Shown here: piece by piece, positions 20,226 to 53,390 of the stretch
Position numbering within the stretch: position 1 is the stretch's first letter
How the letters are laid out: every line of letters starts with the position of its first letter
Assembly: GCF_017526105.1 (NCBI RefSeq)
Contig: NZ_CP071839.1
Span: 992,001-1,056,000 of the forward strand
Reading direction: 5' to 3'
Source: Streptomyces cyanogenus
GTDB taxonomy: Bacteria; Actinomycetota; Actinomycetes; Streptomycetales; Streptomycetaceae
Length of the DNA stretch: 64,000 bases
The notes under the pieces: generated by a model
What the model saw: only the letters and a program-made list of their open reading frames with translations
The model's database searches: none
Told to the model about the DNA's origin: nothing
Made by a program: the position numbers and the translations under genes

Positions 20226-20302
20226 GCGTGCGGAGTGCGGCGTTGCTGCGTGCGGAGTGGGGCGTTGCTGCGTGCGGCGTTGCTGCGTTGCGGCGTGCGG
20301 AG
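20226..20302. repeat. Short GC-rich tandem repeat upstream of the LuxR-type regulator
   Basis: A unit of about 22 bases (GCGTGCGGAGTG followed by SGGCGTTGCT, where S is C or G) occurs twice in a row. A shortened 15-base copy (GCGTGCGGCGTTGCT) and a degenerate fourth copy follow. The array ends about 16 bases before the proposed ATG at 20318. It is read through by a longer open frame from 20228, but the repeat-encoded residues resemble no protein family. Confidence 0.7.
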
Positions 20303-20317
20303 AACCGGAATGGGCGC

Positions 20318-32781: not shown

Positions 32782-32816
32782 ACCCGGGCGGCCGGCCGCC
32801 CGGCCGCCACAGGTTC
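32780..32816. terminator. Palindromic bidirectional terminator
   Basis: A 16-base perfect palindrome GGGCGGCCGGCCGCCC (32786-32801) lies inside a weaker GAACC (32780-32784) / GGTTC (32812-32816) pair, exactly between two convergent stops. Confidence 0.65.
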
Positions 32817-34200
32817 AGCCGATGGTGACGACGCGTGCCCAGGGGGGTGGGGCGTCGGGGACGTAGTCGGGATCGTCCTCGTCCACGGCGTGCGCGGGGC
32901 GGGGGAAGAGTCCGACGACGGTGCGGCAGGGCGGCTGCGCCGAGGGCCACGGCGTCTGGCCGTCGGTGAGGGCGACGATCACGTCCGGGCGGGGCCGGGA
33001 GCGGAGCGCGCGGGCGAAGCCGGAGCGCAGATCTGTTCCCCCACCGCCGAGCAGTTCGATGTTCTCGGCCCGGCAGAGGGGGACGGCGACCCCGGCCGCC
33101 GCGTCGCAGGAGATCACCGAGACCAGGTCGCGCCGCCCGCCCACCGCCCGCGAGATCGCCGCCACCTCCAGCAGCGCGCTGCCCAGTTCGGCGTCGCTCA
33201 CCGACCCGGAGGTGTCGATCACGACGCAGACGCGGGGCGGCGTACGGCGCAGGCTCGGCAGCAGGACTCCGGGGATGCCGGCCGAGCGCCGGGAGGGGCG
33301 CCGGTAGCTGTGGTTCTCGCCCACTCCCGGCGCGGCCGCCGCCGCACGGACGGCCGCCCCCAGCAACTGCCGCCACGGCTGCGGTGGATGGAAGGCCTCG
33401 TCCGCCCATCGGCGCCAACCCTCCGGTGCGTCGCCCGGCCGTCCTTTGATGCCCTCGGCGACCCGGAAGCGGACCGCGTCCCGCTGCTGCCTGCTCAGCC
33501 CGTGGGCGCCCTCGGGACCCAGCTCCCAGGGCCGGGCCTGCCCGTCGGCGCCGCTGCCGCAGTCCAGCCAGGCCAGGTCGGCGGCCAGCCCGGTCATCGA
33601 AGCCCTCCGCAGGTACTCCTCCATCAACAGGCCGTCGGGCAACCGCAGCAGCGACGGCAGCACCGCTCCGGCGGGCCGGGGCAGGCCGTCACCGTAGATG
33701 TCGTCGTTGATCTCGAAGTCGGCGGCGATGTTGCGTCGCAGCCTCTCCCGGCCCTCGGCCGCCGGGCTCCCCGCCCCGGTCCGTTGGCCCGGCCCGTGCT
33801 CCTCGTGCTCCCGTGCGTACCGCTCGCCGCGTGCGTGGTGGTCCCGGAGCAGGTGGGAGACCTCGTGCACCCAGACGCCCGCCAGCTCTTCCACGGGGGT
33901 GCGCGCCACGAAACCGGGCGAGACGTAGCAGCGCCAGTGTGCGTCCACCGCCATCGTCGGCACCGAGCGGTCCTCCACGACGTGCAGCGCGAAGAGGGCG
34001 GCGGCCAGGTAGGGCCGTACCTTCACCGCGTGCAGCCGGGCGGCCAGCAACTTCTCCATGTCCAGGGGCAGTCCGGGCCGGTCGTACGGGTCACCGGTGC
34101 CGGCCGGCGGCCCGGGTACGGCAGCGCGCACCGGGCGTGGCGGCGCGGGCCGGGCCATCGGGCGCGGCAGCGGGACCGGGCGCCTCTCGGCCCCCGTCAT
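32815..34200 (-). CDS. DUF2201-type putative metallopeptidase / vWA-like protein
   Basis: This 461-aa protein has a zinc-peptidase-like N-terminal domain with HEVSH at 112-116 (GVWVHEVSHLLRDHH) and a C-terminal vWA-like domain with MIDAS motif DTSGSVSD (near 326) and GGGGTDLRSGF. This is the DUF2201 putative metallopeptidase plus VWA-like arrangement. ATG at 34200 overlaps the upstream ATPase stop by 4 bases, so the much longer open frame extending to 35121 is rejected. MoxR-type ATPases and vWA proteins pair as chaperone or metal-insertion modules; the HExxH suggests a proteolytic or metal-dependent step. The natural substrate is unknown. Confidence 0.88.
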   Translation of the reverse strand: MTGAERRPVPLPRPMARPAPPRPVRAAVPGPPAGTGDPYDRPGLPLDMEKLLAARLHAVKVRPYLAAALFALHVVEDRSVPTMAVDAHWRCYVSPGFVARTPVEELAGVWVHEVSHLLRDHHARGERYAREHEEHGPGQRTGAGSPAAEGRERLRRNIAADFEINDDIYGDGLPRPAGAVLPSLLRLPDGLLMEEYLRRASMTGLAADLAWLDCGSGADGQARPWELGPEGAHGLSRQQRDAVRFRVAEGIKGRPGDAPEGWRRWADEAFHPPQPWRQLLGAAVRAAAAAPGVGENHSYRRPSRRSAGIPGVLLPSLRRTPPRVCVVIDTSGSVSDAELGSALLEVAAISRAVGGRRDLVSVISCDAAAGVAVPLCRAENIELLGGGGTDLRSGFARALRSRPRPDVIVALTDGQTPWPSAQPPCRTVVGLFPRPAHAVDEDDPDYVPDAPPPWARVVTIG

Positions 34201-35453
34201 CGGCGCGTCCCCGCCGCGCGCCCGGCACCTGCCGTGGCCCGGCCCACCGACCGGTCCGCGCGGCGGGCGAGTTCCACCACCCCGGCCAGCCGCTCCACCG
34301 TCTCCGGCACCTCCCAGTCGTCGCGCCGCAGCGCGGCGAGCGTGCTCGCCGGGGCGACCAGCAGGTCCGGGGCGCCGCTCTCCAGTGCCCGGGCCAGCAC
34401 CTTCCAAGCCGCCTCCCACCGCTGCCGCTCCGGTCGTGCGCCCACGGCGGCCACCACCGCCTCCAGCGCGGCCTGCCGCAGATCGCCGCGCTCCGGCAGC
34501 TCGGCGGAGGGGGGATCGGCCAGCAGTGACTCGGGGTCCGGCAGGTCCATCCGGTCCAGGTGCGCGAGGAGTTCGAGCCCCGGCCCGTCCCCCACCGCAC
34601 CCCGAACCAGCAGCGCGAGCACTTCCCGGGAGACGGCGGCCGCCGTGCCGAAGGCCAGCAGGGTCAGCGCGGCCTCCCAGCTGCGGGGCGACGGCCAGGC
34701 GCCGCCGCGCCGCGTCTCGGTGCTCGGCAGCCGGTGGATCAGGGTCGGCCGGGCCTGGAGGAAGCCGCAGACGGCGCGCCGGGCGTACGCCACCGCCTCC
34801 GGCAGCCGTTCCGGCTCCAGGCGGGGCAGTTCCGCCCGGGGCCAGACCCCGCCCAGTCCGCGCACCACCACGTCCCGGTCGTGCACCCAGTACAGATGCA
34901 CGAACCGGTTCGCCAGCGGCGGGCTCAGCTCCCAGCCGTCCGCCGCCGAGGCACGCGGGTTGGCGGCGGCCACGATCCGCACGCCGGGCGGCAGTTGCAG
35001 CGCACCGACCTTCCGCTCCAGGACGACCCGGAGCAGCGCGGCCTGGACGGCCGGGGTGGCGGTGGAGAGTTCGTCCAGGAAGAGCAGGCCCCTTCCGGCC
35101 CGTACCAGTTCCACGGCCCACTGCGGCGGTGCCATCGGCACTCCTTGCACCGCCGGGTCGTCGCCGACGATGGGCAGCCCGGAGAAGTCGGACGGCTCGT
35201 GGACGCTGGCGATCACGGTCGTCAGCGGCAGGTCGAGGGAGGAGGCGAGCTGGGTCAGGGCCGCGGTCTTGCCGATGCCCGGTTCCCCCCAGAGCAGCAC
35301 GGGCAGGTCCGCCGCGACGGCCAGGGTGAGCGCTTCGAGCTGCTCGTCGGGGCGGGGCTCGGTGGTGGTCGTCCGCAGCAGCTTCAACAGGTCGTCCGAC
35401 AGGGCGAGTTGGCTGTCCGTCGCGGGGGCGTGCAGGAGGGTGCTGGAGGTCAT
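34197..35453 (-). CDS. MoxR-type AAA+ ATPase
   Basis: This 418-aa AAA+ protein has Walker A GEPGIGKT (56-63), Walker B LLFLDEL (Asp127-Glu128), sensor-1-like IVAAANPRA, and the pore-facing MoxR features. The C-terminal part is a helical lid followed by an Ala/Arg-rich tail. ATG at 35453 follows CAGGTGA by 5 bases; the GTG at 35462 is less likely. It couples ATP hydrolysis to remodelling of a partner, probably with the overlapping vWA protein as substrate adaptor. The three genes from 37041 down to 32815 read as one operon. Confidence 0.9.
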   Translation of the reverse strand: MTSSTLLHAPATDSQLALSDDLLKLLRTTTTEPRPDEQLEALTLAVAADLPVLLWGEPGIGKTAALTQLASSLDLPLTTVIASVHEPSDFSGLPIVGDDPAVQGVPMAPPQWAVELVRAGRGLLFLDELSTATPAVQAALLRVVLERKVGALQLPPGVRIVAAANPRASAADGWELSPPLANRFVHLYWVHDRDVVVRGLGGVWPRAELPRLEPERLPEAVAYARRAVCGFLQARPTLIHRLPSTETRRGGAWPSPRSWEAALTLLAFGTAAAVSREVLALLVRGAVGDGPGLELLAHLDRMDLPDPESLLADPPSAELPERGDLRQAALEAVVAAVGARPERQRWEAAWKVLARALESGAPDLLVAPASTLAALRRDDWEVPETVERLAGVVELARRADRSVGRATAGAGRAAGTRR

Positions 35454-35562: not shown

Positions 35563-37041
35563 TCAGCGCATCAGGCCGGTGCGCGGCCGGGCCCGGCTGA
35601 TCAGCTTGCGGCGCAGGTCGTGAGGGACACGGCGATCGAGCCGGGGACGACGGCTCGCGTCCGCGTGTGCCACGCCCTGAGCGGCCTCGGCGGCGGGGTG
35701 AACGGTGACCAGCCCCGAGCGGTAGAGGCCGTGGTCGACACGGCGGGCCGCGGCCGACTCCAGTTCCTCGCGGAGCGGCCCGTCGGGCAGGGCGGCGCCG
35801 GGGCCGAGCAGCCCTTCCACCACGGCCAGCGCCCCGGCGGTGTCACCGTGGCGCAGCCGCTCCCGGACGGCGGGCAGTGCCTCCGGGTCGCGGTGGACCG
35901 CGTCGATCGCCCGCAGGCAGGGCAGCGCCGGCCCGCCGAGCGCCACCAGCAGCTCCTCGCGCCGCAGTTCGGACGGCGCGTGATCGACCGCTGTGAGCAC
36001 CCCGTCCCGCAGCGCGATCCGGTGGACCTCGCCCCGGCACTCGACCCGGTGCGGATCGCCGGGCCCGGGGACGGGTACGGCCGCTGGTGCCGGGCCCGAA
36101 TCCGCCAGTGCCGCGGCGACGAGCGGATGCAGCCGGTCGGCCGCGACGAGCCCGGCCCGCAGCAGCTCCAGATCCGGAAGGACCCGAGCCGCGGCCTCGG
36201 GGAGCACCGGAAGCGCCGCGACCTGCTGCGGTGGCAGCGCTTCCCGCAGTGGCCGGAACGTCGGGGCATGGCTGTCGTCGGGGGCGACGAGTTCGAGGAC
36301 GGCGCGGCTGCGCGCGCCGAGCCGCACGGTGAAGGCCCCGCGAGGGCGCGCCTCGGCCCGGAACAGCAACTCCGCCTCGGCGGCCCACCGCGCCACCGCC
36401 CACGAAGCGCCGGAGCCGGCGGACCGGTCCGGAACCTCCGGCGGGCGGGTACCACCGGTCGGGTGGGGCCGGCCGGGCGGTGTCGTCGGCGGTGTCGCGT
36501 CCGCTCCGCATCGCCGCGCGAGGTCGCCGCTGCGCCCGGCGTCCCAGAGGTGCCGGTGCAGGTCGAGCCGGAAACGCCGGTCGGGATGCGGATGCGGATG
36601 GTGCCGCGGGGCGCCGGTTGCGAACCCCTCCCACAGCGCCATGGACATCCGCTGACCGGCGTCGGCCCACGTCGGCGGTGTGCGCACCACCAGTTGCACC
36701 GGGGTGGCGCCCGAGCTGCCGTAACGGGCCAGGGAGAGGGTGAGGCCGGGCCGGAGCCGCCCGTCGGGAGCGCCGCGGGGCATGTGCCAGCGGAGCAGAT
36801 CGGGCGCCAGCCGGCGCAGGTCTGCGCGCAGGCGGGCGGCGACCTCGGTGCCGTGGCGGTTGCGGACGGCGCGCAGATCGAGATCGATGTCGACGCGGGC
36901 GGCGGCGCAGGCCCCCGACCAGTCACCGGACGCGCGCCGTGCCGCCGCGGTTTCGATCATGGACGGTGGCACGGCGTACTCGCGCACGCGCTGCCACATC
37001 AGCAGACGGGACGGGACGTCGTTCGCGAAGTGATGTGCCAT
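35563..37041 (-). CDS. Unknown protein of the MoxR/vWA operon
   Basis: This 492-aa protein has no domain I can name. It starts MAHHFANDVPSRLLMWQRVR, is rich in Arg, Ala and Pro, and has no signal peptide or membrane segment. Its middle has a His/Pro-rich stretch (APRHHPHPHPDRRF) and a Pro/Thr-rich linker (about 185-215); the C-terminal half contains HGDTAGALAVVEGLLG. ATG at 37041 follows AAGGTGA by 6 bases. It precedes the ATPase by about 110 bases on the same strand and is probably the third component or target of that module. Confidence 0.75.
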   Translation of the reverse strand: MAHHFANDVPSRLLMWQRVREYAVPPSMIETAAARRASGDWSGACAAARVDIDLDLRAVRNRHGTEVAARLRADLRRLAPDLLRWHMPRGAPDGRLRPGLTLSLARYGSSGATPVQLVVRTPPTWADAGQRMSMALWEGFATGAPRHHPHPHPDRRFRLDLHRHLWDAGRSGDLARRCGADATPPTTPPGRPHPTGGTRPPEVPDRSAGSGASWAVARWAAEAELLFRAEARPRGAFTVRLGARSRAVLELVAPDDSHAPTFRPLREALPPQQVAALPVLPEAAARVLPDLELLRAGLVAADRLHPLVAAALADSGPAPAAVPVPGPGDPHRVECRGEVHRIALRDGVLTAVDHAPSELRREELLVALGGPALPCLRAIDAVHRDPEALPAVRERLRHGDTAGALAVVEGLLGPGAALPDGPLREELESAAARRVDHGLYRSGLVTVHPAAEAAQGVAHADASRRPRLDRRVPHDLRRKLISRARPRTGLMR

Positions 37042-37176
37042 CAGCACTCACCTTGCACGAACGATTCCCCCAATCCGTACGAGGAGAAGTTCTTCATCCC
37101 GCGCATCATAACCACACCTCCGCGGGAGTGTCCTCGCTCTTTTCCCTCACCCTCGCGGCAGGGGTCGTCCGCCGGC

Positions 37177-38463
37177 TCAGACCGGGCTGAGCGGATGTGC
37201 CGCCGTGGCGGACCGGGGCGGCCAGGCCTGCGCGGAGAGGATGCCGAGCACGTAGGCGCGGGCGACCAGGGCGGGGCGGTTGGCGGCGCCGAGGAGGTCG
37301 CGCAGGCGGCTCAGGTGGTAGTCGACCGTCTGCCGTGACAGGTGCAGCGTTCCCGCGATGTCGGCGTTGCTGTGCCCGGCGGCCAGCAGGGCGAGGATGC
37401 GCACCTGGGTGGCCGTCAGCGGCGGCTGCGCCTCGTGGCGCAACCCGACGTGTGTCATGACGGCCCACACCCCGGACACGCGTTCCGAGACACCCGGCAC
37501 CGCGCTCAGCTGGACACACACGCGGCGCAGTCCGCTGTCCCCGTCGACGAGTACCGCGGCGGCACGGGCGCTTCTGCGCCGGCCGCCTATGAGGTCGTCC
37601 CAGATCCGGTGCAGGGCGCCGCGTTCCGGTGTCCTCGCGAGGAGGCTGTCGGCGGGCAGCCCGACGAGCTCGGAGAGGCGGATGCGCAGGAGCTCCGCCA
37701 CGGCGGTGCCGGCCTCCCCGACCAGTCCGTCCACCGACAGGCGGACGCAGAGAAGGCCGCTGTGGTCGCGCAGGGTCCGCAAGTCCTCCTCGGCCCGGCG
37801 CCGTTGGTCCAGGGCCCGGGTGGAGTCGGTGACGTCGACGTAGATGCCGGCCGCACAGCGCTGTCCTGCCCAGCGGACGGGGAAGCGGTACCCCGCGGCC
37901 TGTCCGCAGGAGCCGTCGGGGCGCCGGTAGGCGAGGGTGTGCCGTACGGGCCTGCCGCCGGCGAGGACCTCCTGGTCCAGGGCGAGGAAACGGGTGACGT
38001 CGCCGGGTGCGTCGACGTCGGCGAGGTGGCGGCCGACGACGGCGTCGCGCGTGGTGCCGTACAGGTGGGCGTACGCGTGGTTGGCCCACAGGTAGTGGCC
38101 GGTGGCGTCGCGCACGAAGGCCGCGGCCGGGGCGAGCTCGGCGAACGCGGCGTACGGGTTCTCCTGCGGCCGGCCGCTCACCTCGACGGCCACTCCCCTG
38201 CTGCCGTGCCGGCCGCCACCGGCGTGGCGGACCGGCCAGTTGACGTCGAAGGTGCGGCCTTCGAAGCACGCCTGGTAGGGGCCCGCGTCCGGAGCCCCGG
38301 ACGGGCCGTCGCGGTCGGCGCGGAGAGTGTCCAGGAAGCGGCGGGCGGTCCGCTCGTCGGCGAACGCGCCGCCTCCGCTGTCGACCACTCTCTGCCCGCC
38401 GTCGGCTTCCCACCAGGACACCGGAAGGGGCCCGAGCAGCGTCTTGAAATCGGCCTCGTCCAC
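37177..38463 (-). CDS. PAS-domain LuxR-family regulator
   Basis: This 428-aa protein has PAS-type sensor regions (about 95-210, VRDATGHYLWANHAYAHLYG; a second weaker one about 225-345) and a C-terminal LuxR helix-turn-helix (about 355-415, LTATQVRILALLAAGHSNAD and LHLSRQTVDYHLSRL). This is the general plan of PAS-LuxR activators that control antifungal and other natural-product clusters in Streptomyces. It is divergent from the ATP-grasp/dikinase/MFS operon across 272 bases, which makes it the likely pathway regulator. GTG at 38463 follows AAAGGAG. No perfect palindrome is visible in the shared control region. Confidence 0.87.
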   Translation of the reverse strand: MDEADFKTLLGPLPVSWWEADGGQRVVDSGGGAFADERTARRFLDTLRADRDGPSGAPDAGPYQACFEGRTFDVNWPVRHAGGGRHGSRGVAVEVSGRPQENPYAAFAELAPAAAFVRDATGHYLWANHAYAHLYGTTRDAVVGRHLADVDAPGDVTRFLALDQEVLAGGRPVRHTLAYRRPDGSCGQAAGYRFPVRWAGQRCAAGIYVDVTDSTRALDQRRRAEEDLRTLRDHSGLLCVRLSVDGLVGEAGTAVAELLRIRLSELVGLPADSLLARTPERGALHRIWDDLIGGRRRSARAAAVLVDGDSGLRRVCVQLSAVPGVSERVSGVWAVMTHVGLRHEAQPPLTATQVRILALLAAGHSNADIAGTLHLSRQTVDYHLSRLRDLLGAANRPALVARAYVLGILSAQAWPPRSATAAHPLSPV

Positions 38464-38735
38464 GGCCCAACTCCTTTAATCGTCCACCATGTTCACGGTG
38501 AGTGACATCTCATGCGTATCCCGTAGCGCACCGGCCATGCGTCGTCGCGGCATTGCGGCATTTGCCTGAACGGGCCGCCGATTTCGGTGCCGTTCACGTG
38601 AGGTGCGGCTGGTTCGCTGGAAGGAGAGGGCGGCGCGGCGGACTTCCGCACGGCAGCGCGTGCGCTTGCCGCCGCAACCGTTCCGGGCACGGCCCGTGCC
38701 CGGGACTTCGGGACGACCAAGGGAGTTGGGTTTCC

Positions 38736-40109
38736 GTGAGCAAGGTGCTGTACGTGCATGCCAAGGGCGGGCCGCCGGCGGGGCACGCCCTGCGGCGGGT
38801 GGCCGCGCGGTCCGCGGTGCACCTGCTGGCACTCAGCGAGCTGCCCGCCGGTGTGGCGGCGGAAGCCGCGCGGCTGTGCGACTCGGTCGTCGCCCACGCC
38901 ACCGCGGAAGAAGGCGATCTCGTCGGGCTCATCACCGCCCGCGCCCGCGAGGTGGGCGCGGACGCGGTCGTCACCTTCTCGGAGTACGCGGTGGTGGCGG
39001 TCGCCGAGGCGTCCCGGCGGCTCGGGCTGCGCGGTGCCGGGTCCACCGCCGCGCTGGCCCGGGACAAGCGGCTGATGCGTGCGGCCTGGGAGCGCCAGGG
39101 CTTACCGCAGCCCAGGTTCCGCTCGGTCACCACCGCCGCGGAACTGGAGCGCGCGGCGGCCGAGTTGTCGTTCCCGCTGCTGTTGAAGGCCGCGTGGAGC
39201 GCCGGTTCCACCGCCCACCAGATCATCGGGACGCCCGGGGACCTGCGCGCCGCCTGGCAGCGGTCGCGCGCGGTGATGGCGGAGTCGGCGCTGCTCGGGT
39301 TCGCGGAGCTGCACGTGCCCGGGGCCGGTGAGGACTTCATCGTGGAGGAGATCGTCAGCGGGTGCGCCGCGGACTGGTTCGGCGGTTCCGGCTGGGGTGA
39401 CTACGTCAGTGTCGAGGGCGTGGTGGCCGACGGCGTCTTCCACCCGGTCTGTGTGAGCGGGCGGATGCCCACCGTGGCGCCGTTCACCGAGCGCGCCGGC
39501 ATCACCCCGGCGGCCCTCGGGAGCGCCGCGCAGGCCGGGATCGTGGAGCTGGCCCGGCGGGCCGTGGACGCCCTGGGTCTGGAGAACTGCGGTACGCACA
39601 CGGAGATCAAGCTGGGCGCGCAGGGTCGCATGTGGCTGATCGAGACGGCCGCGCGGTTCGGCGGCGCGATGACGGTGCCGCAGATCGAGCAGGTCTTCGG
39701 GATCGACCTGGCCGGCATGTTCACCGATCAGCTGCTCGGCCGCTCTCCCGCCTGGCCCGCGCGAGCGCTGACACCGGACGACGCCGACGGCGCCGCCGGG
39801 TCCCTGGTGGTGCTCGCCGTGAACAAGGACGGCTCGCCGTGGGCCCGTCGCCATCTGTGGGACTCCGCGACGGTCGTCCGCTCGGCCCCGGTCAGCCCGG
39901 GCAGCACGCTGTCCGTCGTCGCCGAGAGCTCCCTGCCGGACGGCTCCCTCGTGCCGGTGTACGACCCGGCCGCCGGCGCCAACACCATGGCGGCGGTGTG
40001 TCTGCTGTCGGCCGGCCGGCCGCAGACCGTCGTGGACGACTTCACCGCCATGGTGGACGCCCTGCCACGGATCCTGCCCACGGACGTCACCGAGGCGGTG
40101 CGGGCATGA
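38736..40109 (+). CDS. ATP-grasp carboxylate ligase with a TTA codon
   Basis: This 457-aa protein has the ATP-grasp plan of carboxylate-amine/thiol ligases: N-terminal pre-ATP-grasp Rossmann-like region (SKVLYVHAKGG), ATP-binding FPLLLKAAWSAGS and GAGEDFIVEEIVSG, and the C-terminal metal site (THTEIKL, WLIETAARFGG). It should activate a carboxylate as acyl phosphate and join it to an amine. The usual Glu-x-Asn metal ligands read Glu-Thr-Ala here. Codon 123 is TTA (39102-39104), in frame, so expression probably depends on bldA. GTG at 38736 follows AAGGGAG by 10 bases. Its stop overlaps the dikinase start. Substrates are unknown. Confidence 0.85.
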   Translation: MSKVLYVHAKGGPPAGHALRRVAARSAVHLLALSELPAGVAAEAARLCDSVVAHATAEEGDLVGLITARAREVGADAVVTFSEYAVVAVAEASRRLGLRGAGSTAALARDKRLMRAAWERQGLPQPRFRSVTTAAELERAAAELSFPLLLKAAWSAGSTAHQIIGTPGDLRAAWQRSRAVMAESALLGFAELHVPGAGEDFIVEEIVSGCAADWFGGSGWGDYVSVEGVVADGVFHPVCVSGRMPTVAPFTERAGITPAALGSAAQAGIVELARRAVDALGLENCGTHTEIKLGAQGRMWLIETAARFGGAMTVPQIEQVFGIDLAGMFTDQLLGRSPAWPARALTPDDADGAAGSLVVLAVNKDGSPWARRHLWDSATVVRSAPVSPGSTLSVVAESSLPDGSLVPVYDPAAGANTMAAVCLLSAGRPQTVVDDFTAMVDALPRILPTDVTEAVRA

Positions 40110-42118
40110 CCGGCACACTGCACGAGGTTGGGGTGCCGGACGCCGCGGGCGACCGTACCGTCGTCGGCGCCAACCTGTCGCTGCCGCTGTTCCGCGCGCT
40201 GTCCGGGGTGCTGGCCGGACACCCGTACCTCAAGGTGGTCGTGGACCGTGTCCGGGACACCTGGCACCTGCTGGACACCCGGGTGCACCCCTTCCACGTC
40301 GACTACGTCGCGACCCGCGTCCTCGGTATGACGCTGGACGAACTCGACGCGAACCTGGACGCGTTCAACGCCTCGGTGTACATGGACCCCGAACGCCGTT
40401 TCCTGCTCGGGGTGTTGTCCCTGCACACCGAGGAGGAGGCCGGCGGCTCCGAGCGGCCGTTCCTCGTCCTGGAGACCACCGAGGCGGACACCATGCCCGG
40501 GCCGCTGCTGGAGGAGTTCTACCACTATGTGCGCGGACGGGTGGACGGTCGCCTGCCGCTGCTGCTGAAGCCGGCCAACCACGGCCAGGAACAGGAACTG
40601 GCCGCGATCGGCGAGGCACGGGTGCCGCGCATCCTCAGCCACGAGCTGTTCGGCAACCGGATGCGCACCTGCCTCAACCCGGGTGAGGCCGAGGGACGAC
40701 TGCGCTACTTCCGCACCGCCGTCGAGTACGAGAGCGCCGCCGCGGACCTCGGCTGGCAGGACATCATCGCCATGCCCCGTCTGCCCGACGACGTGCCCCG
40801 CACCGCCGGGTTCATCAACACGGCTCCCACGACGCCGCTTTCACACACCAACGTGCTGGCCGCGGGCTGGGGCATTCCGAACGCGATCGTCCGCGATCTC
40901 GACGCCGTCGTACGGCGCGACGGTCTCGACGGCGCGTGGGTGCGCTACCGCGTGCACGAGGACGCCGTCACCCTGGAACGGCTGCCCGGCGCACCGGCTC
41001 TGGAACGGCCCGCCTGGCACCGGCAGCGCATCCGTATCGAGACACCGCTGCTGCAGGAGGCCCCGATCCTGGCGCTGCACCGGCTGCGGCGCACCGACCG
41101 GGACGGTTACGGCACCAAGGCGGCCAACCTCGGGGAGCTGCACCACGTCCTGGACAGCCGCACCGCGGACCTGACGAGGTTCTACGCGCGCCCGCGTCCG
41201 CCACGGCCCGATCTCCTCGGCCACCTGGCCGCCCGGCTGGGCGAGTCGGGGGCGTCGCCGGAGCGGCTGCGGGCCGCCGCGGCGGAGCGCGTGGCGGAGA
41301 CGGTCCGCGCGCCCCGGGGAGTGGCCCTGCCGTTCCGGTTGCACCACCTGTTCCTCACCTCCTCCCCCGCGCTGCAACAGGGCATCGGCAGGCTGAAGAT
41401 GGCGCTGGAACTCGACGCGCTGGACGTGGTCGACTCGCTGTCCCTGCACCTGCAGCGGCTGACGTGCAGCACGCCGATGCCCGGGGAGGTGGCGCGGGCG
41501 ATCACCACCTCCGTGGCGGACCTCACGGCGGACGGGCGCCGTCTGGTGGTGCGCTCCTCGTCCAATGCCGAGGACCTGCCCGGCTTCTCCGCCGCCGGGA
41601 TCTACGACTCGGTCACCACGGTGCACGGCACGGACCAGCTCATGGACGCGGTACGGCAGGTGTGGGCGTCGCTCCTGTCGCCGCGCAGCGTGCGCCTGCG
41701 GCACGAGGCCGGCATCCCCCTGGACGACACCTACATGGGAGTGATCGTCCAGGAGTACACGCCCGCCGACCTGGGGGGTGTCCTGGTGACCTGTGATCCG
41801 ACCCGGCCCGAGGACTTCCGCAACGTGTACCTCAACTGCACCCCCGGCTCGCCCGAGCGGGTGGTCGACGGCACCGTCCTGCCGCAGCAGTACCTGTACA
41901 ACACCGTCGAGGGCGGGGGCCGCACGGTCGACCTCGGTTCCTCGCGCGAGGACCTGCCCGCGGCGACACGGGCCTCGCTGGCCCATCTGGCCCTGGCAGG
42001 GCGCCTGTTGCAGTCCCACTTCAGCGAGACCGACTGCGACGAGGCCCTGGACATCGAGTGGCTGATGACCGCCGAGGGGACCTTCCACCTGGTCCAGGTC
42101 CGCCCCTACGCCCGGTGA
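40106..42118 (+). CDS. Dikinase-like enzyme with glucan-water-dikinase domain order
   Basis: This 670-aa protein has an unassigned N-terminal region (1-220) and a phosphohistidine-type loop with His247 in PTTPLSHTNVLAAGWGIPNA. At about 335-670 is a PPDK/PEP-synthase ATP-binding domain (TKAANLGEL, VVRSSSNAEDLPGFSAAGIY, DIEW...HLVQVRPYAR). In PEP synthase and rifampin phosphotransferase the ATP domain comes first. Here the His domain comes first and there is no C-terminal PEP-binding barrel, as in plant glucan/phosphoglucan water dikinases. It would transfer the beta-phosphate of ATP through His247 to an acceptor bound by the N-terminal region. ATG overlaps the ATP-grasp stop (ATGA). The acceptor is probably the ligase product or precursor (inference). 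Confidence 0.8.
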   Translation: MTGTLHEVGVPDAAGDRTVVGANLSLPLFRALSGVLAGHPYLKVVVDRVRDTWHLLDTRVHPFHVDYVATRVLGMTLDELDANLDAFNASVYMDPERRFLLGVLSLHTEEEAGGSERPFLVLETTEADTMPGPLLEEFYHYVRGRVDGRLPLLLKPANHGQEQELAAIGEARVPRILSHELFGNRMRTCLNPGEAEGRLRYFRTAVEYESAAADLGWQDIIAMPRLPDDVPRTAGFINTAPTTPLSHTNVLAAGWGIPNAIVRDLDAVVRRDGLDGAWVRYRVHEDAVTLERLPGAPALERPAWHRQRIRIETPLLQEAPILALHRLRRTDRDGYGTKAANLGELHHVLDSRTADLTRFYARPRPPRPDLLGHLAARLGESGASPERLRAAAAERVAETVRAPRGVALPFRLHHLFLTSSPALQQGIGRLKMALELDALDVVDSLSLHLQRLTCSTPMPGEVARAITTSVADLTADGRRLVVRSSSNAEDLPGFSAAGIYDSVTTVHGTDQLMDAVRQVWASLLSPRSVRLRHEAGIPLDDTYMGVIVQEYTPADLGGVLVTCDPTRPEDFRNVYLNCTPGSPERVVDGTVLPQQYLYNTVEGGGRTVDLGSSREDLPAATRASLAHLALAGRLLQSHFSETDCDEALDIEWLMTAEGTFHLVQVRPYAR

Positions 42119-42126
42119 GGCGCCGT

Positions 42127-43512
42127 ATGTCGCTCCTGCGGTCCTCCGCCCCCGCGCCGGCGCCGTCCCCGGCCGCGCGCCGGATCATCCGCCTGAACAA
42201 CGGCTTCCAGCTGCTGTTCAACCTGCTGTGGTGGATGCCCGTGTTCTACGCCTACCAGCGGGACGCGGGCCTGTCCGACGGCCAGATCTTCGGCATCCAG
42301 AGCATCTACTACATCGCCTTCTGCCTGTTCGAGATACCGACCGGGATCGTCGCCGACCGTATCGGCGCCCGCAACTGCCTGCGTGCGGGAGCGGTGGTCA
42401 TGACGGCGGCGAATCTGGTGCCCGTGCTGGCACCGACGTACACCGGTTTCCTCGCGCACTTCCTCGCCATCGCGGCCGGACGGTCCCTGACGTCGGGCGC
42501 GGCCAGTGCCTATCTCTACGAGGGGCTGCGCGCGGAGCGGGCGGACGCCCACTACCTGAGGGCCGAGGGAACGGCACGTGCCCTCGGGCTCGCCGCCAAG
42601 GTCGTCTGCTGGCCGCTCGTGGGGCCGCTGATGACGCTGGCGCCGCAGACGCCGTACGTGCTGAGCGCGGCGAGCGCGGCCGGTTCCCTGGGCTGCGCGC
42701 TCGCCCTGCCGCGGCTCGCCGCGCGCGGGACGGACAACCGGCCGCGTTCCCCGGCGCGGACCGGCGGGGGCTTCCTGCGGGACACGGGTGCCGCGCTGCG
42801 TGCGCTGCGGTCCTCTCCGTGGCTGGCCCTGCTCATGGTCCAGGGCGTCGCCGTGTTCACGCTGTCGCGCATCTGCCAGGTCAACCTGTTCCAGCCGGTG
42901 CTCCTGGAGCACGGCATCGGGGAGAACGCACACGGCAGTGTGCTCGCGGCCATGACGGTCGCCGAGGCGGTGGCGTCGGCCCGCCCGCAGTGGCTGAGCC
43001 GCCGGCTGCCGCCTGTCGTCTGGGTGTCCCTGCTGAGCGTGGCGCTCGCCGCAGCCCTGGCGGGCACCGCCGTCGGCGGACCCTGGACCGTGGTCGCCCT
43101 GCTGTGCGCGTTCGCCGCGCTCACCGGGTTCGTCTATCCGGTGCAGCGCAAGCTCGTCAACGACGCAGTCCCGGCACACGCGCCCCGTGCCACGCTGCTG
43201 TCGGTGGAGAGCATCGTGGACCGTGGCGTGTGCGCGCTGGCCGCGGTGGCCGCCGGCGCGTATCTGGCGGCGGGCCGGCTGGACGCACTGCTGTGGCACA
43301 GTGCCGCGATCACCTGCGTCCTGATGCCGGCCCTCCACCTGGCGCTGCACCGGGCCGATCGGGCCGGCGCCCCGGACGGGGAGGGCGGCACGGCCTCCGG
43401 CGCCCGCGGACGGAACTCCGCCTCGGCGGGACAACCCGTCTCCCCGGCAGACATCGCCTCGGCGGACCGACCCGTCTCCCTGCCGGCCGACGAGGGCGCT
43501 GCGCCACGCTGA
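42127..43512 (+). CDS. MFS transporter
   Basis: This 461-aa protein has about 12 membrane helices, with the MFS inter-helix motif GIVADRIGARNCLRAG after helix 2. A basic N-terminus and a 60-residue hydrophilic tail with two PVS-type repeats (GQPVSPADIASADRPVSLPAD) flank the core. It starts 8 bases after the dikinase stop with GGTGAGG upstream. Its place at the end of the ligase/dikinase operon suggests it exports the pathway product or gives self-protection. Confidence 0.88.
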   Translation: MSLLRSSAPAPAPSPAARRIIRLNNGFQLLFNLLWWMPVFYAYQRDAGLSDGQIFGIQSIYYIAFCLFEIPTGIVADRIGARNCLRAGAVVMTAANLVPVLAPTYTGFLAHFLAIAAGRSLTSGAASAYLYEGLRAERADAHYLRAEGTARALGLAAKVVCWPLVGPLMTLAPQTPYVLSAASAAGSLGCALALPRLAARGTDNRPRSPARTGGGFLRDTGAALRALRSSPWLALLMVQGVAVFTLSRICQVNLFQPVLLEHGIGENAHGSVLAAMTVAEAVASARPQWLSRRLPPVVWVSLLSVALAAALAGTAVGGPWTVVALLCAFAALTGFVYPVQRKLVNDAVPAHAPRATLLSVESIVDRGVCALAAVAAGAYLAAGRLDALLWHSAAITCVLMPALHLALHRADRAGAPDGEGGTASGARGRNSASAGQPVSPADIASADRPVSLPADEGAAPR

Positions 43513-44411
43513 CGACGCGTGTCCGAGGGCGTGCGGCCGAGGATGTGCGGCCCCTCAGGTCTCGGCTTGCGCGACCTGACTCCGTCGGCCTTGATACATC
43601 CGGGCTTTTCCGTCCGCAGGGCCGTAGCCGTCGCGGCCCGGAAGGAATGGTCCATTTTCGGCCTCTCGAACAGTTGCTTGATGCGGATGCGTAGACGGGG
43701 ACGAGGTGAGGAGGCTTGCGGGCCGGCAATTCGCCTGCGCCGGCCGGACCACTGTCGCCGGTCCGCGACCTGCTCGAAATCCCCACCTGCGGCCAAACGT
43801 TCGAAGTGTGCGCCGGAATGGAACAAGCCATCGGTCGAGCGTCGCCCGGGCGAGGTATTCGGCCAACAGGCGCAATGCTTTGCGATCAACGATATGCCGG
43901 TGCGGTCTGCGCGGTGAACGCCAAGGTCAGAGCCTGCCCCGGGCGTCCGCACCGGCATCGGCGGCACCACATCAGCCGGCCGTCACCGGTCTGTCCGTCG
44001 GCACACCCGGCGCACGTCAACACACCCGTAGACGTAAATGATCAGTGGGCCAACCTCGAACCTTGAACACAAATTACACACATACTCTCTCCATACCGGT
44101 TCCGATGGTCTAGATTGACCGTGCTTCAGCTGTTCGGAGACGAGGCAGCCATTAAATGATCAACAGGTCCGGAGCTGCGGAAGGCCGTTAGTCGCCTGCC
44201 CGGCGCCGGACGGGGGGTTGATCAATTCGTGGCTCCCGAGAGGGGTCTTGGGTGTGGGGAGCACCCGAGGAAACAGCCCGGGATGTCATGCGCCAGGGGG
44301 GCGGGGGCCTCCCGAGGGGAGGAGCAGCGCGGTGCGGGAGGCGGGGGCCTCCCGAGGGGAGCAAACAGTGTTGGGCGACAACGTCGAATCACTGGGAACC
44401 TGGGGGGTTCT
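43513..44411. promoter_or_regulatory. 899-nt control region upstream of the exopolysaccharide operon
   Basis: No gene is convincing here. Several short frames on both strands lack family features or ribosome-binding sites. The 44030-44170 segment is unusually AT-rich for this genome and probably contains the promoter. TGATCA occurs three times (44039-44044, 44158-44163, 44219-44224); the first two lie in identical 10-mers TAAATGATCA. A 21-base GC-rich element is repeated at 44301 and 44341. Confidence 0.55.
44301..44361. repeat. Two identical 21-nt GC-rich repeats, 40-nt period
   Basis: The 21 bases at 44301-44321 and 44341-44361 are identical (begin GCGGGGGCCTCC, end CGAGGGGAG). Each contains a CCTCCC/GGGGAG hairpin. 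They lie in the leader of the first exopolysaccharide gene and resemble the short hairpin repeats found between Streptomyces genes. Confidence 0.75.
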
Positions 44412-45890
44412 GTGCGGCAAGGGGGACTTGTCAGCTCGTTTCCGTCGGCGCGCGGGCGTCTGGAGAACGGGGCGATCAGCCGGCCCGCGATCGAATGGGA
44501 GCAGCGGTACCGCCGTACCGTGATCATCAGCGACACCGTGGCCACCGCCGTCGTGGTGGCGGCGATCGGCAACTTCTTCGGGGCCCGCGACGCGGCCAAC
44601 TGGCACGAGAAGTGGGGGATTCTCGCATTCGGCTCCGAGCTGCTGGTACTGGGGGCCCTCGCGGTCAGCCGGTCGTGGGCTCCCGCCGTGCTCGGCCAGG
44701 GCGCCGAGGAATTCCGCCGGCTCGGACGCGCGCTGTTCACGGCGACCGTCGTCCTTGCGCTCGGCGGGATCGCTCTCACCTCGCGCAACATCAAGCTGTG
44801 GATCTTCGTCGCGATCCCCGCGATCGCGCTCGTCACCATGACCGCGCGGTACCTGCTGCGGCTGTGGCTGCACAAACAGCGCAAGGAAGGACGGTGCCTG
44901 AGGCCGGTGCTCGCAGCCGGCAGCCCGGCCACCGTAGGCGACCTCATCACCCGGACCCGCAAGTTCCCGCACCTCGGCTGGCGCGTGGACGCGGTGTGCA
45001 CGACGGACGGAGTCGGACTCGACGGTGACGAGATCGACGGGGTACCGGTCGTCGGCCAACTCACGGACGTCGCCAAGCACGTCCACCACGACGGCTACCG
45101 CGTCGTCGCGGTCACACCGGACCCGCACTGGTCACCGGACCGGCTGCAGCGGCTGGCCTGGAACCTCGAAGGCAGCGACGCCGAGATGATCGTGGCGCCC
45201 GTGCTGATGGAGGTGGCCGGCCCGCGGCTGCACGTCGACGCGGTGCTCGGAATACCGCTGCTGCGGGTCAGCATGCCGACCTTCACCGGGGGCCGCCGGG
45301 CGGTCAAGGGGGTCGTCGACCGGATGGGCGCGGCGATCCTGCTGGTGCTGTTCTCACCGCTGATGCTGCTGGTCGGCCTGCTCGTGCTGGCGGACAGTCG
45401 CGGTGGGGCGTTCTACCGCCAGCGCAGGGTCGGCAAGGACGGCCGTGAGTTCACGATTCTCAAGTTCCGCACCATGGTCGTCGGGGCCGACCGGGCACGG
45501 GCCCAGCTGGCCGACCGCAACGAGGGCGCCGGCCCGCTGTTCAAGCTCCGCCGGGATCCGCGGGTGACCCGGGTGGGAACGGTGCTGCGCCGGTACTCGC
45601 TCGACGAACTCCCGCAGCTTTTCAACGTGCTCACCGGATCGATGTCGCTCGTCGGTCCGCGGCCTCCGCTGCCGGAGGAGTGCGCCGCGTACGGCCCCGA
45701 CATCCGGCGGCGGCTGCTGGTCAAGCCCGGACTCACCGGGCTGTGGCAGATCAGCGGACGCAGCGACCTGTCGTGGGAGGAGGCGGTCCGGCTGGACCTG
45801 CGGTACGTGGAGGACTGGTCGCTCGCCCTGGACACAGTGATCTTGTGGAAGACGCTGCGAGCGGTGCTCCACGGGCAGGGCGCCTACTGA
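44412..45890 (+). CDS. Initiating sugar-1-phosphate transferase (polyprenyl glycosylphosphotransferase)
   Basis: This 492-aa protein has N-terminal membrane helices (about 32-55, 65-85, 95-115 and 120-140), a degenerate nucleotide-binding middle region, another helix near 310 (AAILLVLFSPLMLLVGLLVL), and the C-terminal catalytic domain. That domain carries YRQRRVGKDGREFTILKFRT, RRYSLDELPQLFNVLTGSMS, LVGPRPPLPEE and KPGLTGLWQISGRSDL. It loads the first sugar phosphate onto undecaprenyl phosphate at the inner face of the membrane. GTG at 44412 follows a G-run and fits family N-termini; the frame is open upstream to 44229, but that part is repeat sequence. It is the first gene of the long exopolysaccharide operon. 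Confidence 0.88.
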   Translation: MRQGGLVSSFPSARGRLENGAISRPAIEWEQRYRRTVIISDTVATAVVVAAIGNFFGARDAANWHEKWGILAFGSELLVLGALAVSRSWAPAVLGQGAEEFRRLGRALFTATVVLALGGIALTSRNIKLWIFVAIPAIALVTMTARYLLRLWLHKQRKEGRCLRPVLAAGSPATVGDLITRTRKFPHLGWRVDAVCTTDGVGLDGDEIDGVPVVGQLTDVAKHVHHDGYRVVAVTPDPHWSPDRLQRLAWNLEGSDAEMIVAPVLMEVAGPRLHVDAVLGIPLLRVSMPTFTGGRRAVKGVVDRMGAAILLVLFSPLMLLVGLLVLADSRGGAFYRQRRVGKDGREFTILKFRTMVVGADRARAQLADRNEGAGPLFKLRRDPRVTRVGTVLRRYSLDELPQLFNVLTGSMSLVGPRPPLPEECAAYGPDIRRRLLVKPGLTGLWQISGRSDLSWEEAVRLDLRYVEDWSLALDTVILWKTLRAVLHGQGAY

Positions 45891-45891
45891 T

Positions 45892-45945
45892 GCGCGGGGG
45901 CCGTCGTCCGGCCCCCGCGCGCGGACCGCAGGCCGGAAGGCCTGC
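45892..45945 (+). terminator. Tandem stem-loops between the first and second exopolysaccharide genes
   Basis: The first hairpin has an 11-bp perfect stem (GCGCGGGGGCC 45892-45902, GGCCCCCGCGC 45910-45920, 7-base loop). The second has a 7-bp stem (GCAGGCC 45928-45934, GGCCTGC 45939-45945) with a GGAA loop. They start right after the transferase stop and end 20 bases before the next start, so they may attenuate transcription or set mRNA stoichiometry. Confidence 0.6.
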
Positions 45946-45965
45946 CTGGGGGGGAGGAACGGATC

Positions 45966-47282
45966 ATGAAGGTCAGCGTTTTCGGGCTCGGCTACGTGGG
46001 CTGTGTGTCGGCCGCGTGCCTGGCCAGCATGGGTCACGAAGTCATCGGGGTGGACGTGAACCAGGTGAAGGTCGACCTGGTCAACGACGGCAAGGCCCCG
46101 GTCGTGGAGGAGCTGATCGGCGAGCTCATCGCCGATGTGGTGAACACCGGAGCCCTGCGCGCCACCGGTGACGTCCGCGAGGCGATCAGGGAGAGCGAGG
46201 TGTCGCTGGTCTGTGTGGGCACGCCGTCGGAGCCCAACGGCAGCCTGTGCACCACGTACCTGGAACGGGTCACCGAACAGATCGGCGCCGCACTGGCCGA
46301 GCGGGGCGGGCGGCACACCGTCGTCTTCCGCAGCACCATGCTGCCGGGCACCTGCCTGAACCTGCTGGTGCCGATCCTGGAGAAGTACGTCGGCGGCACG
46401 GCCGGGGCGGACATCGGGATCGCGGTCAACCCGGAGTTCCTGCGCGAGGGTACGAGCGTGCGGGACTTCTTCGACCCGCCCAAGACCGTCATCGGCGAAC
46501 TCGACCCGGCGAGCGGCGACGCGGTGATGGCGCTCTACGGCGGTTTGCCCGGCGAGGTGTTCCGGGTGCCGATCCCGACGGCCGAGGCGATCAAATACGC
46601 GGACAACGCCTTCCACGGCCTCAAGATCGGCTTCGCGAACGAGCTGGGCGCGGTGTGCCAGGCGCTCGGGGTGGACTCGCACCAGGTGATGGACGTCTTC
46701 CTGGCCGACCACAAGCTGAACATCAGCCCCGCCTACCTGCGGCCCGGCTTCGCCTTCGGCGGCTCCTGCCTGCCCAAGGACCTGCGCAGCCTGGTCCACG
46801 CGGCGCAGCGGGCCGACGTCTCGGTGCCCATCCTCGCCCACGTGCTGCCCTCCAACTCCGACCATCTGCAGCGCGCGGTGGAGCTGGTGGAGCGCACCGG
46901 CAGACGCCGGGTGGGCCTGTTCGGGCTGTCGTTCAAACCCGGCACCGACGACCTCCGCGAGAGCCCGCTCGTCGAGCTGGCGGAGAGACTCTTCGGCAAG
47001 GGGTACGACCTCAGGATCTACGACGCCAACGTGAGCCTGTCCCGGCTGCTCGGCGCGAACCGCGAGTACATCGAGACCCGGCTGCCGCACCTCGCGCAGC
47101 TGCTCGCGGACTCCGTCGAGGAGGTGCTCGACCACGCCGAGGTCTGCCTGGTCGGGACCAGGGACCCGGCCGTGCTGTCGGCGCTGCCCCACGAGGACGG
47201 TCCGGTGATCGTCGACCTCGTCCGCCTTCCCGACGCCGAGACGCGCCGGACCGACCCGGGATACGTGGGCCTTGCCTGGTGA
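45966..47282 (+). CDS. AlgD-like GDP-mannose 6-dehydrogenase (UDP-glucose/GDP-mannose dehydrogenase family)
   Basis: This 438-aa protein has an N-terminal Rossmann fold (MKVSVFGLGYVGCVSAACLA), INPEFLREG-type loop (VNPEFLREGTSVRDFF), the active-site Cys268 in FAFGGSCLPKDLRSL, and a C-terminal nucleotide-sugar domain (LSFKPGTDDLRESP). It oxidises a nucleotide hexose to the uronic acid in two NAD+-dependent steps. Its length and the Cys268 position agree with Pseudomonas GDP-mannose dehydrogenase AlgD, so GDP-mannuronate is more likely than UDP-glucuronate; UDP-sugar specificity is not excluded. A strong GGGGGGGAGGAA site precedes ATG at 45966. The polymer is therefore expected to contain uronic acid. 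Confidence 0.88.
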   Translation: MKVSVFGLGYVGCVSAACLASMGHEVIGVDVNQVKVDLVNDGKAPVVEELIGELIADVVNTGALRATGDVREAIRESEVSLVCVGTPSEPNGSLCTTYLERVTEQIGAALAERGGRHTVVFRSTMLPGTCLNLLVPILEKYVGGTAGADIGIAVNPEFLREGTSVRDFFDPPKTVIGELDPASGDAVMALYGGLPGEVFRVPIPTAEAIKYADNAFHGLKIGFANELGAVCQALGVDSHQVMDVFLADHKLNISPAYLRPGFAFGGSCLPKDLRSLVHAAQRADVSVPILAHVLPSNSDHLQRAVELVERTGRRRVGLFGLSFKPGTDDLRESPLVELAERLFGKGYDLRIYDANVSLSRLLGANREYIETRLPHLAQLLADSVEEVLDHAEVCLVGTRDPAVLSALPHEDGPVIVDLVRLPDAETRRTDPGYVGLAW

Positions 47283-48543
47283 AAGAAGCGGCGGCGACCG
47301 GCCGGACCGGCGCGCGCTGATCCTGGTGGAGAACCTGTCGGTGCCGTTCGACCGGCGGGTGTGGCAGGAGTGCACGACGCTGCGCGACGCGGGCTGGGAG
47401 GTGCACGTCATCTGCCCGCGCGGGAACAAGCGGGACACGGAGCCGGAGGCGGAGATCGACGGGGTACGGATCCACCGCTACCCGTTGCGCGCGGCCACCG
47501 GAGGGCCGGCCGGCTACCTCAGGGAGTACGGCTCGGCGTTGTGGCACACGGCCCGGCTGGCCCGCAAGGTCGGCCCGGTCGACGTGGTCCACGCCTGCAA
47601 CCCGCCGGACCTGCTGTTCCTGCCGGCACTGTGGCTGAAGCGGCGCGGCGCACGGTTCGTCTTCGACCAGCACGACCTGGTACCCGAGCTGTACCTCTCG
47701 CGGTTCGGCCGCGGCGAGGACCTGCTCTACCGCGGTGTCCGCGCGCTGGAACGGCTGACCTACCGGGCCGCGGACGTCGTACTCGCCACGAACGAGAGCT
47801 ACCGGGACGTCGCGGTGCGCCGTGGCGGCCGGCGGCCGGAGGACGTCTTCGTGGTGCGCAGCGCCCCCGACATCGACCGGTTCCGTCCCGTACCGCCCGA
47901 GCCGGAGCTGAAGCGCGGCAAGCCTCATCTGCTGTGCTACCTGGGCGTGATGGGACCGCAGGACGGTGTCGACTACGCCTTGCGGGCCCTCGCGAGACTG
48001 CGCGACGAGTTCGGGCGGACCGACTGGCACGCGGTGTTCGTCGGCGCCGGCGACACCTTCGACGCGATGGTGGAGCTGGCCCGGCGGCTCGGGCTCTCGG
48101 AGCAGGTGCAGTTCACCGGGCGCATCCCGGACGCCGACCTGGTGCGCTACCTGTCCACCGCGGACGTGTGCCTCTCCCCCGACCCGCACAATCCGCTCAA
48201 CGACGTGTCGACCATGAACAAGGTCCTGGAGTACATGGTGATGGGCCGGCCGATCGTCTCGTTCGACCTCCGGGAGGCACGCGTCTCCGCCGGTGACGCC
48301 GCCGTCTACGCGCCCGCCAACGACGAGACCGAGTTCGCGGGGCTCATCGCGCTGCTGCTGGACGATCCGGAACAGCGGGCCCGGATGGGCAAGATCGGCC
48401 AGGAGCGGATCGGAGGGCCGCTCTCCTGGCGGAACTCGCAAGCGTCGCTGCTCGCCGCCTACGCCGCCGCCTGCCGTGACCACGCTCCGGTGTCGACGGG
48501 CGCCGGGACGAGGCAGCAAGGAGGCCGCGCCGTTGAGCGATGA
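47272..48543 (+). CDS. Family 4 glycosyltransferase (GT-B)
   Basis: This 423-aa protein has a GT-B fold: N-terminal LVENLSVPFDRRVWQECTTL and VDVVHACNPPDLLFLPALWL, C-terminal LGVMGPQDGVDYALRAL, FTGRIPDADLVRYLSTADV and KVLEYMVMGRPIVSFDL. It should add a sugar from a nucleotide donor to the lipid-linked repeat unit on the cytoplasmic face. The start is unusual: TTG at 47272, overlapping the dehydrogenase stop by 11 bases; the next good start would delete the first beta strand. Its own end overlaps the next gene by 11 bases. Confidence 0.87.
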   Translation: MPGERSGGDRPDRRALILVENLSVPFDRRVWQECTTLRDAGWEVHVICPRGNKRDTEPEAEIDGVRIHRYPLRAATGGPAGYLREYGSALWHTARLARKVGPVDVVHACNPPDLLFLPALWLKRRGARFVFDQHDLVPELYLSRFGRGEDLLYRGVRALERLTYRAADVVLATNESYRDVAVRRGGRRPEDVFVVRSAPDIDRFRPVPPEPELKRGKPHLLCYLGVMGPQDGVDYALRALARLRDEFGRTDWHAVFVGAGDTFDAMVELARRLGLSEQVQFTGRIPDADLVRYLSTADVCLSPDPHNPLNDVSTMNKVLEYMVMGRPIVSFDLREARVSAGDAAVYAPANDETEFAGLIALLLDDPEQRARMGKIGQERIGGPLSWRNSQASLLAAYAAACRDHAPVSTGAGTRQQGGRAVER

Positions 48544-51435: not shown

Positions 51436-51438
51436 GAC

Positions 51439-53373: not shown

Positions 53374-53390
53374 AGACAAGAGGACTTCAG

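Follow-up and report, generated by a model that had tools for sequence, protein, structure and literature searches.

Phosphoramidon is an N-phosphoryl dipeptide glycoside built on Leu-Trp. Its biosynthesis, and that of talopeptin, by the tal pathway reportedly uses an N-P-bond-forming kinase, as the title of a 2019 Chem Sci paper by Baulig et al. has it, and the deoxysugar is added by the glycosyltransferase TalC. Few natural products with a P-N bond are known, and fewer enzymes that make them. According to a review (PMC6429109), Streptomyces species make phosphoramidon and talopeptin, which inhibit metalloproteinases, thermolysin among them; the review also describes FMPI (phosphophenylalanylarginine), traced to a 1982 reference, as a phosphoramidate metalloprotease inhibitor of S. 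rishiriensis. Here we describe a four-gene locus of Streptomyces cyanogenus that may belong to this chemistry. It lies at 37177-43512 of a 64,000-nucleotide stretch of contig NZ_CP071839.1 (assembly GCF_017526105.1, positions 992,001 to 1,056,000), called the window below, and consists of a PAS-LuxR regulator gene (REG) divergent from three genes for an ATP-grasp ligase (GRASP), a dikinase-like kinase (DIK) and a major facilitator superfamily transporter (MFS).

We propose, with moderate confidence, that the cassette is a self-contained minimal cluster for an unglycosylated, FMPI-like N-phosphoryl dipeptide (a phosphoramidate), the phosphorylation chemistry being presumed. We infer that GRASP would join two amino acids using ATP and would tolerate a bulky residue at the N-terminus; that DIK would phosphorylate itself at His247 in the swivel domain, taking the beta-phosphate of ATP and releasing AMP and inorganic phosphate, and would then pass the phosphoryl group on to the dipeptide's alpha-amino nitrogen, giving the P-N bond; that MFS would export the product; that the product would inhibit thermolysin-type zinc proteases in the manner of phosphoramidon; and that REG would bind a 16-bp palindrome and thereby activate the operon, while a TTA codon would tie translation to bldA. 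The original prediction for this DNA had summarized the locus as ligate, phosphorylate, export, and the domains found fit that logic. As in the tal pathway, an N-phosphoryl dipeptide would arise through an N-P kinase; unlike that pathway, the window's cassette has no glycosyltransferase gene by Pfam, and holds instead an exporter and a PAS-LuxR regulator. The cassette is best classed as a novel variation on the biosynthesis of phosphoramidate dipeptides.

The four predicted genes and their coupling were borne out by the reading frames and by Pfam. REG (37177-38463, minus strand, 428 aa) has a PAS fold at about residues 104-213 (PAS_4, 1.1e-13) and a C-terminal LuxR-type helix-turn-helix at 348-401 (GerE, 3e-12), both above cutoffs. 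On the plus strand stand GRASP (38736-40109, 457 aa, Pfam ATP-grasp_4, a BacD-like ATP-grasp ligase), DIK (40106-42118, 670 aa, Pfam PPDK_N at 2.3e-39 in its C-terminal half) and MFS (42127-43512, 461 aa, MFS_1 at 5e-16, a probable exporter); GRASP and DIK share 4 bp, and 8 nt separate the DIK stop from the MFS start. The G+C content of third codon positions is 0.91-0.93 across all four frames. A Pfam scan of the cassette proteins found no nonribosomal peptide synthetase (NRPS) or polyketide synthase (PKS), as had been claimed, and the suggested link to bldA agrees with a single in-frame TTA, at codon 123 of GRASP.

The cassette is a portable unit. Taking full-length DIK at 50% identity or more as a hit, we found it in 33 of 295 sampled genus genomes, the window's own genome counted and one copy being split in two pieces; the remaining matches in that sample covered the ATP domain only and were phosphoenolpyruvate (PEP) synthase-like. 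We compared the loci of the 32 other genomes over stretches of 18 kb, less at contig ends. GRASP and MFS adjoin DIK in 32/32, and in 28 of them REG is the divergent gene upstream of GRASP. A scan of named genomes, in which the best 80 of 211 relatives were kept, so that the set is biased towards window-like loci, and which shares some genomes with the 32, found GRASP, DIK and MFS co-located in 80/80, with frames shortened in two (L071, with a short MFS, and L076, with short GRASP and MFS); L131, L134, L135 and L137 have frames that are too long. REG is near the cassette in 78 of these 80 loci and divergently upstream in 71. The ligase and the dikinase thus travel together in other genomes, as the original prediction had expected.

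The genes around the cassette behave otherwise. Homologues of four tested neighbours in the window (35563-37041, 32815-35121, 44229-45890 and 45966-47282) were not beside the cassette in the 32 genus loci, except in L055, where only those of 44229-45890 and 45966-47282 occur, and on its opposite side. An exopolysaccharide-type cluster that begins at 44229 was accordingly rejected as part of the pathway, these being its first two genes. Because GRASP, DIK and MFS are together in 32/32 loci while the tested flanking genes are not shared, their co-location goes beyond chance. The gene order can differ, being DIK, MFS, GRASP in L061. A plasmid search (170 records; among the 20 matches listed, two span most of the query) located the cassette on a pair of linear plasmids, each about 0.55 Mb long, for which the public annotation gives a PAS protein, an ATP-grasp protein, a PEP/pyruvate-binding protein and an MFS transporter. 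Distances between GRASP sequences correlate with those between DIK sequences at 0.97 over 93 loci and at 0.86 in the 73 of the window's clade, shared ancestry uncorrected and L076, L134, L135, L187, L188 and L194 left out.

When a profile of GRASP was compared with the PDB, chains of BacD, the alanine-anticapsin ligase, were its best solved relatives (E 2e-73 to 2e-72, residues 55-380), whereas the NCBIfam BacD model NF053745 scored 1.1e-52 and 179 bits, below its cutoff of 850. By these matches GRASP is a relative of BacD with a homologous ATP-grasp dipeptide ligase fold, and not BacD itself, and it probably joins two amino acids. We take the position at which the BacD chains 3wnz (Trp) and 3wo1 (Ala) differ to be Trp332. 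Of 93 GRASP sequences, 73 carry Ala there, 9 Val and 11 Leu, Ala being the type of the window, Val that of other exporter-type loci, and Leu that of the 11 glycosyltransferase-type loci described below. According to a review (PMC6920838), BacD is limited to small residues at the N-terminal position and Trp332 is a substrate-recognition residue. Given that Ala, Val or Leu takes the place of this residue, GRASP likely accepts a larger N-terminal residue, and the product would be bulkier there. The dipeptides of phosphoramidon (Leu-Trp) and FMPI (Phe-Arg) both bear such a residue.

Among 150 genomes of the genus we found 22 GRASP matches in 21 genomes, 19 of them belonging to DIK cassettes and the other 3 lying where no DIK is present. 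Two of these three (L203 8371-9783, plus strand; L204 8466-9830, minus strand) lie between asparagine-synthase-like and MFS-like genes, and the third (L202 8433-9833, minus strand) lies among PLP-enzyme-like, dioxygenase-like and methyltransferase-like genes, the roles of these neighbours being guessed from the starts of their sequences; all three are possible further ligase pathways.

DIK has a PPDK-type ATP-binding domain (PF01326, 136 bits against a cutoff of 27). A structure model built from 32 sequences (mean pLDDT 81.6), which replaced one built from 12 (mean pLDDT 68.9), divides the protein into an N-terminal part to about residue 183, a swivel phosphohistidine domain at 184-294 and the ATP-binding domain at 317-670. 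In this model 317-670 resembles the ATP domain of rifampin phosphotransferase (RPH; Z 30.6, 292 residues aligned, rmsd 2.4) and 184-294 resembles the swivel domain of RPH, residues 754-867 (Z 11.9, 99 aligned, rmsd 2.4). The swivel histidine, His247, lies in a PLSH motif and is invariant in 32/32 aligned sequences, one of them only 26% identical. Glucan water dikinases (GWD) likewise have the swivel before the ATP domain; they were not among the 50 VIA-align matches listed for the DIK model, an absence that is no test. According to PMC4844700, RPH is a rifampin resistance kinase with the order ATP, rifampin-binding, swivel. RPH and GWD first form a phosphohistidine from the beta-phosphate of ATP, and DIK would be expected to begin likewise. 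As modelled, the DIK order is a circular rearrangement of that of RPH.

Two other identities for DIK do not hold. As a PEP synthase or pyruvate phosphate dikinase (PPDK) it matches in the ATP domain only, which is C-terminal, with no other Pfam domain and with all PEP synthase models far below cutoff; as a rifampin phosphotransferase it differs in domain order and scores 110 bits against the NCBIfam cutoff of 999. A PPDK-like enzyme is able to form P-N bonds: Cj1418 of C. jejuni, which used to carry the annotation PEP synthase or PPDK, phosphorylates the amide nitrogen of glutamine (PMC10971088).

Searching with the N-terminal part of DIK, we found it in 41/249 genomes and 4/17 genera of a family sample. 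There were 18 matches in other genera of the family, of which 17 were examined (G342 left out). Eleven of the 17, all in one genus (g14), hold DIK and GRASP together with an EryCIII-like glycosyltransferase of the deoxysugar type, which stands in place of exporter and regulator and is accompanied by no homologue of the cassette MFS; its scores are above Pfam cutoffs and below NCBIfam cutoffs. The other six, three of them also in g14, are GRASP, DIK and MFS, and none of the loci examined holds both an MFS homologue and this glycosyltransferase. In L187, GRASP and DIK are fused in a single open frame of 1122 aa. Because the ligase adjoins DIK, and is once fused to it, we take the dipeptide to be the likely acceptor of the phosphate. 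That the acceptor atom would be nitrogen is favoured by the fit of the glycosyltransferase variant to phosphoramidon and by the precedent of Cj1418.

By analogy, then, ligase, kinase and exporter would give a free N-phosphoryl dipeptide, and ligase, kinase and glycosyltransferase a glycosylated one; with their deoxysugar-type glycosyltransferase, the 11 g14 loci of this kind would resemble the tal pathway in this respect. More tentatively, we suggest that a widespread Streptomycetaceae family of phosphoramidate-dipeptide pathways, present in about 1 in 9 Streptomyces species, has this cassette as its core. In this family a module of ligase and domain-rearranged N-P kinase would be joined by an exporter where the product is a free N-phosphoryl dipeptide, the orphan FMPI being an example, and by a deoxysugar glycosyltransferase where it is a phosphoramidon-type glycoside, and Ala, Val or Leu at the position of BacD Trp332 would mark different dipeptide specificities.

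The glycosyltransferase of L177 had no match in L031-L062 and one weak match (33%, in L118) in L063-L142. A search of 392 genus genomes with the glycosyltransferase-type kinase gave 7 matches above the strict threshold, the best at 59% identity, and L242, the only new one, was again GRASP-DIK-MFS; no glycosyltransferase-type locus was found among the Streptomyces loci examined. The N-terminal part of DIK was present in 6/345 genomes of a class sample, all of the window's own genus, and in 6/296 of a phylum sample, of which 3 were of that genus and 3 distant, without GRASP in the stretches fetched. A distant DIK-like protein of 887 aa from another family of the phylum (L191 7716-10379, minus strand) has a secreted-lipoprotein-like start, which is odd for a kinase.

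The original prediction had allowed the phosphorylation to serve either resistance or maturation. The strongest competitor to our proposal takes up the former: DIK would be a self-protection or prodrug kinase that masks a bioactive peptide made by GRASP on a hydroxyl or other group, as RPH does with rifampin, and MFS would export the masked form. Both DIK domains that were identified do have RPH, a resistance kinase (PMC4844700), as their nearest solved relative, and an exporter gene adjoins DIK. Nevertheless, L187 has ligase and DIK fused, the variant with a glycosyltransferase and without an exporter homologue fits maturation better, and the domain order and N-terminal part of DIK are unlike those of RPH; we consider this explanation unlikely. 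Maturation is favoured over resistance by the fusion, by the strict co-occurrence with the kinase, and by the variant of kinase, ligase and glycosyltransferase.

A second possibility is that DIK makes a further bond. RedH and PigC, prodigiosin ligases that bear PPDK_N, join two parts with ATP, and a DIK of this kind would use a phosphorylated intermediate to condense the dipeptide with another molecule or to cyclise it, leaving a product without phosphate. While the DIK ATP domain matches the RedH model at E 3e-23 and the PigC model at 5e-18, neither score comes near its curated cutoff, RPH and PEP synthase both score higher, and a gene for a second building block is absent from the conserved cassette in the 32 genus and 80 named loci, all of which makes a bond-forming role improbable. 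Poorer still are the prospects of a cassette for nutrient handling, signalling or development, in which MFS would import or export a small molecule and an N-phospho compound would be a signal or phosphagen-like store, for although MFS proteins work in either direction and PAS sensing and bldA control are also found in developmental genes, the patchy distribution (33/295), the megaplasmid location and the glycosyltransferase variant are typical of specialised metabolism.

Our own proposal of an N-phosphoryl dipeptide has several observations to contend with. His247 was matched to the catalytic His825 of RPH at the level of the domain, not residue by residue; no fold was recognised in the N-terminal part of DIK, and its putative role in binding the acceptor is reached by elimination; and the assignment of DIK as an N-P kinase is by analogy, TalE, the kinase of the tal pathway, being perhaps a PEP-synthase-like enzyme. 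The DIK-less GRASP relatives, at 44-48% identity, make up 3/22 matches, and the ligase family is therefore not tied to phosphorylation but serves other pathways too. The tal cluster is possibly built differently, since the Streptomyces loci examined lack the glycosyltransferase type although phosphoramidon and talopeptin come from Streptomyces. Finally, the source of FMPI is S. rishiriensis strain NK-122. The strain found here to carry all four genes is NBRC 13407 (L088), and given that it is another strain and that the cassette occurs in 33/295 sampled genomes, the match is weak, a lead rather than proof.

FMPI is a compound of the kind proposed, an unglycosylated N-phosphoryl dipeptide being the product type expected from ligase, kinase and exporter, and no genes for it were described in the literature searched. 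The earlier claim that no characterised pathway has this gene set needs narrowing, the biosynthesis of phosphoramidon and talopeptin being the closest precedent; the set itself was not recognised in the open-licence literature, judged by titles and abstract openings, which is no proof of absence. If the proposal is right, a compact cassette common in Streptomyces makes P-N metalloprotease inhibitors and, lacking NRPS and PKS genes, is probably easily overlooked. It would then offer a candidate gene set for FMPI, a kinase of unusual domain order, and a promoter element with which to switch the cluster on.

That element is the operator-like palindrome TGCGGCATTTGCCTGA at 38554-38569, with 90 nt between it and the REG start and 166 nt to that of GRASP, which differs by 2 mismatches from the 16-bp consensus TCAGGCAWWTGCCTGA. 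The consensus occurs at 3 mismatches or fewer in 70/72 REG-GRASP intergenic regions (71 named loci and the window; L100 and L138 are the exceptions), versus 5/1440 shuffled regions in which base composition only was preserved. Positions 4-6 (GGC) and 10-13 (TGCC) are unvarying in the 70 regions. In the window alone the match is not significant, 16/100 shuffles holding one at 3 mismatches or fewer, and the case for the palindrome therefore rests on its conservation. A genome-wide regulon was not seen in the window's own genome, where the 14-bp core at 2 mismatches or fewer was found at 20 places, versus 42 for a reversed-pattern control.

REG resembles PAS-LuxR regulators of the PimM type in having a PAS domain and a LuxR-type helix-turn-helix, and in the 16-bp palindrome with an AWWT centre in the promoter region. 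Members of that group are 148-243 aa long in the review table consulted, against 428 aa for REG, and the arms of TCAGGCAWWTGCCTGA differ from those of the published operator, CTVGGGAWWTCCCBAG. Because the arms differ, REG may have a binding specificity of its own.

In the window, TTA codons were found in 2 of the 35 genes counted, GRASP and a LuxR-type regulator gene at 20288-22822. Among the 80 named loci, REG or GRASP has a TTA codon in 48, versus 6 for DIK or MFS, relatedness uncorrected. In alignments the codons fall in 9 columns for REG and 10 for GRASP (the window included, three odd-frame loci left out), as though the first gene on each side of the divergent pair had come under bldA control more than once. 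The other TTA-bearing gene (plus strand) encodes a large protein with AAA, TPR and GerE domains and has two such codons, 518 and 830.

Other features of the window lie outside the cassette. A frame of 22 codons at 37041-37109 (minus strand), MMRGMKNFSSYGLGESFVQGEC, shares a TGATG overlap with the start of the 492-aa gene at 35563-37041, which has no Pfam match. A peptide ending GESF..GEC occurs at the same place in 5/30 homologue loci, the window's included, all five among the 8 closest, and from this pattern the frame is probably a real conserved micropeptide. Near this gene pair, 32815-35121 (minus strand) encodes a putative metallopeptidase/VWA-like protein (DUF2201_N, DUF2201). Farther off, 6059-10453 (minus strand) encodes a protein of 1464 aa in which a trypsin-like peptidase domain and an nSTAND1 NTPase domain are accompanied by a weak match to a beta-propeller. 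Beyond the MFS end of the cassette, 44229-57538 (plus strand) holds polysaccharide-type genes, for a polyprenyl glycosylphosphotransferase, a UDP-sugar dehydrogenase, Wzz, an asparagine synthase, a zinc dehydrogenase/Gfo-Idh fusion and a heparinase-like protein.

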